A stretch of 64,000 nt of DNA, taken from positions 6,324,001 through 6,388,000 of the forward strand of contig NZ_AP018439.1 of assembly GCF_009937955.1 (NCBI RefSeq), in the 5' to 3' direction. This document shows positions 138 to 41,570 of the stretch, piece after piece. The DNA comes from Undibacterium sp. KW1 (GTDB taxonomy: Bacteria; Pseudomonadota; Gammaproteobacteria; Burkholderiales; Burkholderiaceae_D). The position numbers were made by a program, and so were the translations under genes. How positions within the stretch are numbered: the first letter of the stretch is position 1; the number at the start of each line of letters is the position of its first letter. Under the pieces are notes generated by a model, which had not been told where the DNA came from, did not search any database, and saw only the letters and a list, made by a program, of their open reading frames with translations.

Positions 138-317
138 GGACTTACGCAAAACCGCCCCAGCTGCGTTGCAGCTCCTTGCCGTACTAAAGTACTGTCTTCG
201 TCGCTGACGGTGTAGTCGGGTTTCAGACAACATGTTGTCTGCCGACGAAATGAACCTCCCCTGCAAGGGAGGTTTCCTAAAAGTGATAACCTTGCTGGGA
301 CAATTTTGCGTAACTCC
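138..317 (-). repeat. Family A inverted-repeat element, copy 1 (MITE-like, 180 bp)
   Basis: This 180-bp element is repeated in opposite orientation at 11549-11728. Its ends are imperfect terminal inverted repeats: GGACTTACGCAAAACCGCCCC on the left and, read inward from the right, GGAGTTACGCAAAATTGTCCC. Inside are an 18-bp perfect palindrome (224-241), a 22-bp near-palindrome (253-274) and a GTAC-TAAA-GTAC hairpin. No transposase and no clear target duplication are seen. The small size, terminal repeats and lack of coding capacity resemble a MITE or REP-type element. It lies upstream of the TraB-like gene. The rest of 1-459 holds no gene that I can support. Confidence 0.75.
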
Positions 318-11548: not shown

Positions 11549-11728
11549 GGACTTATGCAAAATTGTCCCAACGAGGCTAACGCATTTAGGAAACCGCCCT
11601 TGCAAGGGCGGTTCGTTTCGTTGGCATACAGCATGCTGTATGAAACTCCAACTACACCGCAGCGACGACGACAGTACTTTAGTACGGCTAGGAGCTGCAA
11701 CGCGGTTGAGGCGGTTTTGCATACGTCC
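11549..11728 (+). repeat. Family A inverted-repeat element, copy 2 (MITE-like, 180 bp)
   Basis: The same 180-bp element as at 138-317, in opposite orientation and of equal length. Terminal repeats are GGACTTATGCAAAATTGTCCC and, from the other end, GGACGTATGCAAAACCGCCTC. Internal palindromes are at 11592-11613 (perfect, 22 bp) and 11625-11642 (perfect, 18 bp). Where the two copies differ inside these palindromes, both partners of a pair have changed. It separates the divergent mutarotase and SirB2-like genes. Short open frames across it are shadows. Confidence 0.75.
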
Positions 11729-21420: not shown

Positions 21421-21439
21421 GATGAGCAGTGAGGATGGG

Positions 21440-21708
21440 TAGAACTCATTTCATAAATAGGGATGAGTGCGAACAAGGCGATTTGGGATGCAGTGCAAGG
21501 TGTGGCCTTTGCTAAGGCTCATGCCTTAGCAAAGGACGCAACGCAGCAATGCACCCAAATCGTCAGTTCCCGAAGGGTTCGCCTCATAACACGTATCAGA
21601 CAACATTGGATTTATTAAAAATAGTGCCACAATTGACAACCACAAACGTGTTACCGGTCCGTGTTATGAGGCAAACGCATCTCATTCATATTTATGAAAT
21701 GAGTTCTA
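21440..21708 (+). repeat. Family B inverted-repeat element, copy 1 (MITE-like, 269 bp)
   Basis: The ends are perfect 20-bp terminal inverted repeats: TAGAACTCATTTCATAAATA and its reverse complement. A second copy is at 41283-41550. Internal structure: a 13-bp perfect hairpin (CCTTTGCTAAGGC with GCCTTAGCAAAGG, loop TCAT, 21506-21535) inside an outer CGATTTGGG/CCCAAATCG stem, and a second pair of arms GCCTCATAACACG/CGTGTTATGAGGC. It has no coding capacity and no transposase. A MITE is the simplest reading. Confidence 0.8.
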
Positions 21709-41226: not shown

Positions 41227-41282
41227 GTAGTTTTACCAAAATCTTTGATCAAAAGGAAACACAGTGTAGCAGACCGTAAAGC

Positions 41283-41550
41283 TAGAACTCATTTCATCAA
41301 TAGGATGAGTGCGAACAAGGCGATTTGGGATGCAGTGCAAGGCGTGGCGCGCAGCTAAGGCGTCCGCCTTAGCAAGCGGCACAACGCAGCAATGCGCCCA
41401 AATCGTCAGTTCCCGAAGGGTTTGTCTCATAACGCGTGCTTGACTGCGTTGGATTCGTTAACAATAGCACCGATATTGACCGCCTCGCCCGCCTTGCCAA
41501 GTTACGTTATGAGGCAAACGCATCTCACCCTATTGATGAAATGAGTTCTA
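41283..41550 (+). repeat. Family B inverted-repeat element, copy 2 (MITE-like, 268 bp)
   Basis: The same element as at 21440-21708 and in the same orientation. Perfect terminal inverted repeats TAGAACTCATTTCATCAATA/reverse complement, differing from copy 1 at the same position on both ends. The outer CGATTTGGG/CCCAAATCG stem and the inner GCTAAGGC/GCCTTAGC hairpin are kept, though the flanking bases have changed; the second arm pair (GTTTGTCTCATAACG and CGTTATGAGGCAAAC) is also kept. No coding capacity. Confidence 0.8.
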
Positions 41551-41570
41551 CCATATCGTTCACGCCAGGC

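Follow-up and report, generated by a model that had tools for sequence, protein, structure and literature searches.

Matched base changes in the stems of a small MITE-like repeat of Undibacterium and its hairpin module

The palindromes considered here are the inner hairpins of a small MITE-like repeat of Undibacterium, and the stems of this repeat change in matched pairs. The element is flanked by 5-bp target duplications, can fold from one end to the other, and contains between zero and three copies of a structured hairpin unit that we refer to as module M. Two copies lie within the window, by which we mean the whole 64,000-nucleotide stretch of Undibacterium sp. KW1 that was analysed (contig NZ_AP018439.1, positions 6,324,001 to 6,388,000). 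Taken as a whole, the best explanation, which we hold about as readily as we doubt it, is that a folded strand matters for the spread of the element, that module M is a separate unit, and that recombination reshuffles the parts.

A foldback element and its insertions

Both copies are instances of a repeat of about 180 nt and were paired by a repeat search within the window. Their parts are listed here; the palindromes were located by direct reading.

138..317, + strand: copy 1 of the MITE-like element, long form with one module; a 5-bp target duplication is not visible
138..161, + strand: left terminal arm of copy 1 (5′ strand of P1)
294..317, + strand: right terminal arm of copy 1 (3′ strand of P1)
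168..208, + strand: core hairpin P2 of copy 1, with inner stem GTACTAAAGTAC at 181-192
209..278, + strand: hairpin module M of copy 1, in the order GGTGTAG, P3, GGTTTC, A, P3′, B
215..246, + strand: stem P3 of copy 1, in which 215-219 pairs with 242-246 and encloses palindrome A
224..241, + strand: palindrome A of copy 1, CAGACAACATGTTGTCTG
253..274, + strand: palindrome B of copy 1, AACCTCCCCTGCAAGGGAGGTT
11549..11728, − strand: copy 2, inverted relative to copy 1, long form, without a clear 5-bp duplication
11705..11728, − strand: 5′ terminal arm of copy 2
11549..11572, − strand: 3′ terminal arm of copy 2
11588..11658, − strand: hairpin module M of copy 2
11625..11642, − strand: palindrome A of copy 2, CATACAGCATGCTGTATG
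11592..11613, − strand: palindrome B of copy 2, AACCGCCCTTGCAAGGGCGGTT

The element has the ends TAGGACTTACGCAAAA and the arms TAGGACTTACGCAAAACCGCCCCAGC ... GCTGGGACAATTTTGCGTAAGTCCTA, inside which lies the core hairpin GCCGTACTAAAGTACTGTC. Arms of 24 nt, forming terminal inverted repeats, are present in 87 long copies and in 62 of the 64 rows of a set of short copies. Long forms add a module of about 80 nt, in which stem P3 encloses palindrome A and is followed by hairpin B; short forms of 99–113 nt are without it, and forms of 63 nt extend hardly beyond the arms themselves. The overall size is thus 63 to about 200 nt with zero or one module and longer with two or three. Two or three tandem modules were seen by eye in 9 of 11 fetched loci (one of them cut by a contig end), which had been chosen because most hinted at more than one module; in one (L293) three compensated pairs and a single unpaired change distinguish the tandem modules, again by eye. 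Very small relatives of 63 to about 90 nt (L194, L195, L351, L362, L370) have the same ends, with inner hairpins that are different or missing. The host genome also contains a sister family (L039, L041, L042) with ends AGGCTG..CAAAATT(A/G)ACCTGGC that, by eye, has the core GCCGTACTAAAGTACTGTC in common.

The repeat is represented by 47 blast pieces in its own genome and by matches in 34 of 60 searched genomes (own included), which fall in 3 of 25 genera; a pattern scan gave matches in U. pigrum, U. hunanense, U. umbellatum, U. aquatile, sp. TS12 and one Burkholderiales MAG. Of 114 copies, 110 were examined for a flanking repeat, and in 33 of these an exact 5-bp direct repeat surrounds the TA-bounded element, where permuted flanks predict 1.1. 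The figure is for the best among the 25 end offsets and 6 lengths that were tried, and one copy (L012) entered it in the wrong orientation. A bare TA duplication was considered as the target signature and is superseded by the 5-bp duplication outside the TA end. At the matching loci of four relatives (G027, G032, G019, G035) neither window copy is present; bases there are replaced and no clean empty site is left. Joined-flank searches found relatives' sites for 12 other own copies: one (L025) fits a 5-bp duplication, one (L023) fits with one mismatch in the empty site, two of the 12 (L031 and L037) show no duplication, and eight are unclear because their flanks have diverged.

With respect to genes, 28 of 30 own loci are flanked on each side by a simple open frame (8 convergent, 16 tandem, 4 divergent), and in these 28 the element has no orientation preference. 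In 15 of the 30 own loci, for example L013, L018, L024 and L031, a flanking open frame ends no more than 10 nt from the element, which suggests that the element either inserts directly behind stop codons or itself provides the stop.

Transposases of the IS630 type (PF13358) and IS5 type (PF13340) were examined as candidate movers at 33 of 38 matches' loci (8 genomes, the two families) and rejected, since the element ends were not found around them; no resemblance to the ends went beyond 11 of 14, a level like that of chance. A search for a longer element started from 29 ends in one genome: 26 have a clear partner end within about 300 nt and so belong to small elements, one has a weak partner, and two have none in the sequence covered. 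A 540-bp stretch with similar ends (L193) was rejected as a longer element because, by eye, it contains no transposase-like frame. Phage records gave no match, and viral contigs scanned with a window protein gave no relative. Plasmids gave one partial match to the core in Massilia and, for the module, Cupriavidus metallidurans; two other modules had no plasmid match.

It is informative to compare the element with known repeats, keeping in mind that these sources were available in part. The Correia/NEMIS MITEs of Neisseria occur in forms of about 107 and 155 bp that differ by an internal stretch, and have 24-bp terminal inverted repeats, TA ends, a target duplication and a foldback structure (PMC2229807). 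By description only, the Undibacterium element resembles them in its two length forms, 24-nt arms, TA ends, duplication and foldback, but it differs in having a 5-bp duplication and a tandem structured module, and no transposase relative was found for it. The ERIC/IRU repeat, an intergenic palindrome in the same partial source (PMC2229807), shares TA ends and target duplication with our element, although its terminal repeats are 7 bp and the arms here are 24 nt. BrickBuilt, a MITE of Porphyromonas gingivalis with an internal minisatellite of 23-nt repeats (PMC4596501), is likewise a MITE with an internal tandem array, but the part of that source available to us describes no covarying hairpin modules. 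We found no description of the element family itself in the literature surveyed, which lay largely outside subscription journals.

Matched changes in the stems

The original prediction held that palindromes A and B show three compensated pairs between the two window copies, and that copy 1 has a C/A mismatch that copy 2 repairs. Direct reading found the palindromes where they had been placed, with the compensated pairs and the copy 1 mismatch as described, and the covariation proved stronger than had been noted, with six compensated pairs between the copies. Specifically, the whole-element alignment has 179 aligned bases with 27 substitutions and 2 gap columns. Twelve of the substitutions form the six pairs: the terminal arms hold two (columns 8/205 and 23/189), P3 one (217-244 versus 11650-11622), palindrome A two and palindrome B one. 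The others comprise five one-sided pairs and ten substitutions at unpaired sites. When the 27 substitutions are placed at random and a doubly hit pair is allowed to match with a chance of 1/3, the mean is 0.41 compensated pairs and the maximum 4 in 20,000 draws.

The earlier claim, that the hairpin is what is conserved, whether as DNA or as RNA, is supported. It had named as its refutation a larger alignment in which arm changes are paired no more often than chance; in the larger alignments, paired changes exceed chance in both long and short copies. An alignment of 87 long copies (7 own, 80 of relatives) with 54 pairs contains 296 cells in which both partners have changed and pairing is preserved, compared with 73.6 (sd 6.1) after shuffling and with 14–52 when partners are slid by 1–3 columns, and 37 pairs carry a double change against 21.5 expected. 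The module stems are 94–99% paired. Among minority states, the compensated share is 71% in P3, 75% in A and 87% in B (leaving out the innermost B pair, in which 29 of 87 cells are unpaired), compared with 23% in the terminal arms (leaving out three fixed C.A pairs) and 37% in P2. In the short set of 64 copies, two rows of which are doubtful (L039 and L040), 42 arm cells are compensated against 6.1 after permutation, with a maximum of 16 in 2,000.

The module structure also emerges when none is supplied: given 45 of the 83 distinct modules, RNAalifold arrives at P3, A and B, and 16 of the 22 pairs covary. In a set of 14 divergent modules, 12 of them from outside the element, covariation is seen in 17 of 23 pairs. 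A pseudoknot joining GGTTTC to G-AAC is not supported, as the partners do not covary.

The frequency of a state is informative about where pairing is filtered. In the module stems, states present in at least four copies are Watson-Crick in 16 of 16 cases, compared with 2 of 15 for states in two or three copies and 7 of 30 for singletons; this count leaves out the innermost B pair, whose common states in an earlier alignment, CA (19 copies) and CT (4), are unpaired. Singleton changes occur at 0.34–0.65% per base in module stems versus 0.69% at unpaired positions. Since stem singletons are not much rarer than unpaired ones, the hairpin appears to be kept in spreading lineages and not guarded in each copy, and pairing looks to be filtered in the lineages that spread, at least for the module. 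The corresponding Watson-Crick counts for states in at least four copies are 5 of 14 in the terminal arms and 3 of 5 in P2; because the arms do not share the module's frequency pattern, our confidence in an explanation through spreading is lowered. Two further observations stand against such a filter. Mismatch load does not rise with the decay of the target duplication (Spearman 0.01 and 0.09), and it was rejected as an age clock. Furthermore, the short copies are without the module, which sits awkwardly with a part for the module in spreading.

Explanations for paired change

In the explanation that we prefer, a folded single strand, more likely the one opposite to copy 1 as read, would be needed at some step of spreading, perhaps for recognition or as a folded intermediate. 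Lineages that lose pairing would cease to spread, while resident copies would drift. Module M would be a separate, order-wide structured unit, like the tagged REP palindromes, that entered this and other foldback repeats, and recombination between copies would swap cores and add or remove modules in place.

The strongest rival, which we think improbable but worth about one part in four of our belief, is a mutational origin, in which template switching or the repair of a folded strand makes one arm a copy of the other, so that matched changes arise in a single step and with no selection for structure. Matched transversions with few intermediates are what such copying would leave, and at columns 137/152 the states are CG 42, AT 31, TA 6 and GC 3, with 4 mismatches. 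The excess of matched arm states in short copies also fits, as does the occurrence of the same variant at both ends in 6 of 13 small copies with one variant per end (by eye, among the matches listed). In one short copy (L315) the interior is, by eye, inverted between the arms, which counts on the same side. However, of the 261 cells at three C.A mismatches in the terminal arms, 226 still carry the mismatch, and most rare stem states lack a matching change, so resident copies are not corrected quickly. The element family constitutes a natural experiment on hairpin pairing, with 293 ends of at most one mismatch in four genomes; the resource also includes several species, shared insertions, the element-free sites of relatives and tandem units within one element, and selection on the fold versus hairpin-templated mutation becomes directly testable.

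Somewhat less probable still is that the element is transcribed and works through RNA hairpins, either on adjacent mRNAs or as a small RNA. The fold of copy 1 is better than all of 200 shuffles on both strands (z −5.46 and −6.94), and the terminal-arm mismatches are compatible with wobble pairing if the bottom strand is read. RNA stems usually show an excess of G.U, whereas the module stems do not: among 1,735 cells there are 24 G.T and 15 A.C, with no strand signal, and in 12 module rows outside the element only 6 of 266 stem cells are G.T. Further evidence against a structured RNA is the lack of preferred orientation to genes in the 28 own loci, the absence of the window copies in the four relatives, and the Rfam result: the window and nine module loci gave no match at gathering score, and a lax threshold at five loci gave only SmY (E 0.4, below gathering score).

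The same wobble argument bears on which strand would fold. With RNA parameters, the fold of the bottom strand is the better one for 78 of the 87 long copies and for 20 of the 22 own short ones; DNA parameters give 79 of 87 and 20 of 22. These copies do not amount to many independent observations, because the three fixed C.A pairs are shared by descent. Read on the top strand, terminal-arm mismatches are A.C:G.T = 61:27 in long copies and 31:8 in the arms of 62 short copies (35:14 with the two doubtful rows kept), and an A.C on top is a wobble if the bottom strand is the one that folds. Counted as distinct arm states, A.C/G.T is 15/16 in long and 11/6 in short copies; as these are near even in long copies, a small number of successful states accounts for the excess of A.C there. 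No strand bias is seen where bases are unpaired (213 changes at 41 sites versus 136 at 28). Should one strand matter, the bottom strand is the likelier of the two.

Gene conversion alone, by which dispersed copies exchange blocks that are already matched, is a much poorer candidate. Six insertions are common to species on both flanks (L014/L118, L020/L099, L031/L100, L033/L085, L090/L123, L112/L120), and at these a core, module or stem differs in place: by eye, cores are replaced or lost, modules are present or absent, differences are matched in B (L014/L118 and L112/L120) and in the arms (L033/L085), and unmatched ones break pairs in A (L020) and in B (L123). Conversion between copies together with drift can explain such in-place changes, but it spreads matched states and creates none. 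Finally, chance or an artefact of relatedness among few copies is very hard to credit: kinship does inflate the cell counts, and under a home-made tree-based null (not R-scape) only four pairs lie above all 40 null alignments, the rest having E >1, but slid partners reach at most 52 against the 296 double-changed cells, the short-set excess far outruns its permutations, and modules from other genera have the same structure.

Module M beyond the element

To return to the preferred explanation, its treatment of module M as a separate unit draws on copies outside the element. A first covariance model (R1) found at least 24 modules in the host genome (25 candidates scored), of which 8 are known element copies and 16 lie elsewhere, three of these having been inspected (L392, L394, L040). 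Across the order, R1 matched at least 8 of 200 genomes, own included, and at least six other genera; these are lower bounds, as that scan scored 25 candidates per genome under stricter filters. A second model (R2), built from 17 rows, gave 84.6 bits to a copy in Cupriavidus metallidurans CH34 that was outside its training and found within the window only the two known copies. The window modules score 88.4 bits (R1) and 77 bits (R2) in copy 1, and 92.4 and 84.7 bits in copy 2.

In the 14 divergent modules the motifs GGTGTAG, GGTTTC and CG-AAC are largely kept. Flanking inverted repeats beat all of 300 block shuffles in 10 of 17 outside modules, which places these inside unrelated inverted repeats, comprising 6 of 6 from Undibacterium or the MAG and 4 of 11 from elsewhere; three were borderline (L377, L379, L395) and four negative (L378, L384, L385, L386). 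By eye, the flanking arms fall into five kinds by sequence, including a CT-rich one. For the CT-rich arms (L380-L382), intrastrand triplex repeats, as treated in the available part of PMC4666352, were considered. The element draws attention to a hairpin module that is embedded in foldback repeats of more than one kind. An extension of this, which we regard as possible but rather less than even in probability, is that module M is an order-wide selfish structured unit that moves between, and multiplies inside, unrelated foldback repeats, its stems free in sequence but paired and its unpaired motifs largely kept, so that the mosaic elements would inherit a fold and not a sequence.

There are precedents for parts of this arrangement, again in sources available in part. 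Compensatory stem changes are reported as common in REPINs (PMC3116915). In GTAG-tagged REPs, GTAG precedes the hairpin and some dimers lie inside long palindromes; the terminal GTAG is conserved in over 90% of members in most families, and some are degenerate (PMC3733652). Module M is similar in its compensatory changes, in often having GTAG before a hairpin and, for some copies, in sitting within long palindromes. In contrast to the GTAG REPs, however, it has two dissimilar hairpins per unit and the tag is GTAG in 60 of 87 module rows (GCAG in 9; outside the element, GTAG in 6 of 12), and its carrier, unlike those of REPs, has a target duplication.

Three minor observations concern other carriers. 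On the Cupriavidus metallidurans CH34 megaplasmid (1431601-1434666; L395), module M is followed, by eye, by an inverted core like GCCGTACT..AGTACTGTC of the Undibacterium element. The window itself holds a second foldback repeat family, at 21425-21637 and 41268-41561, that starts near TAGAACTCATTTCATNAATAGG and whose inner hairpins differ between the two copies in what by eye seem to be matched changes. Two further loci (L183 and L260) have a start similar to that of this second family, and both contain module M.
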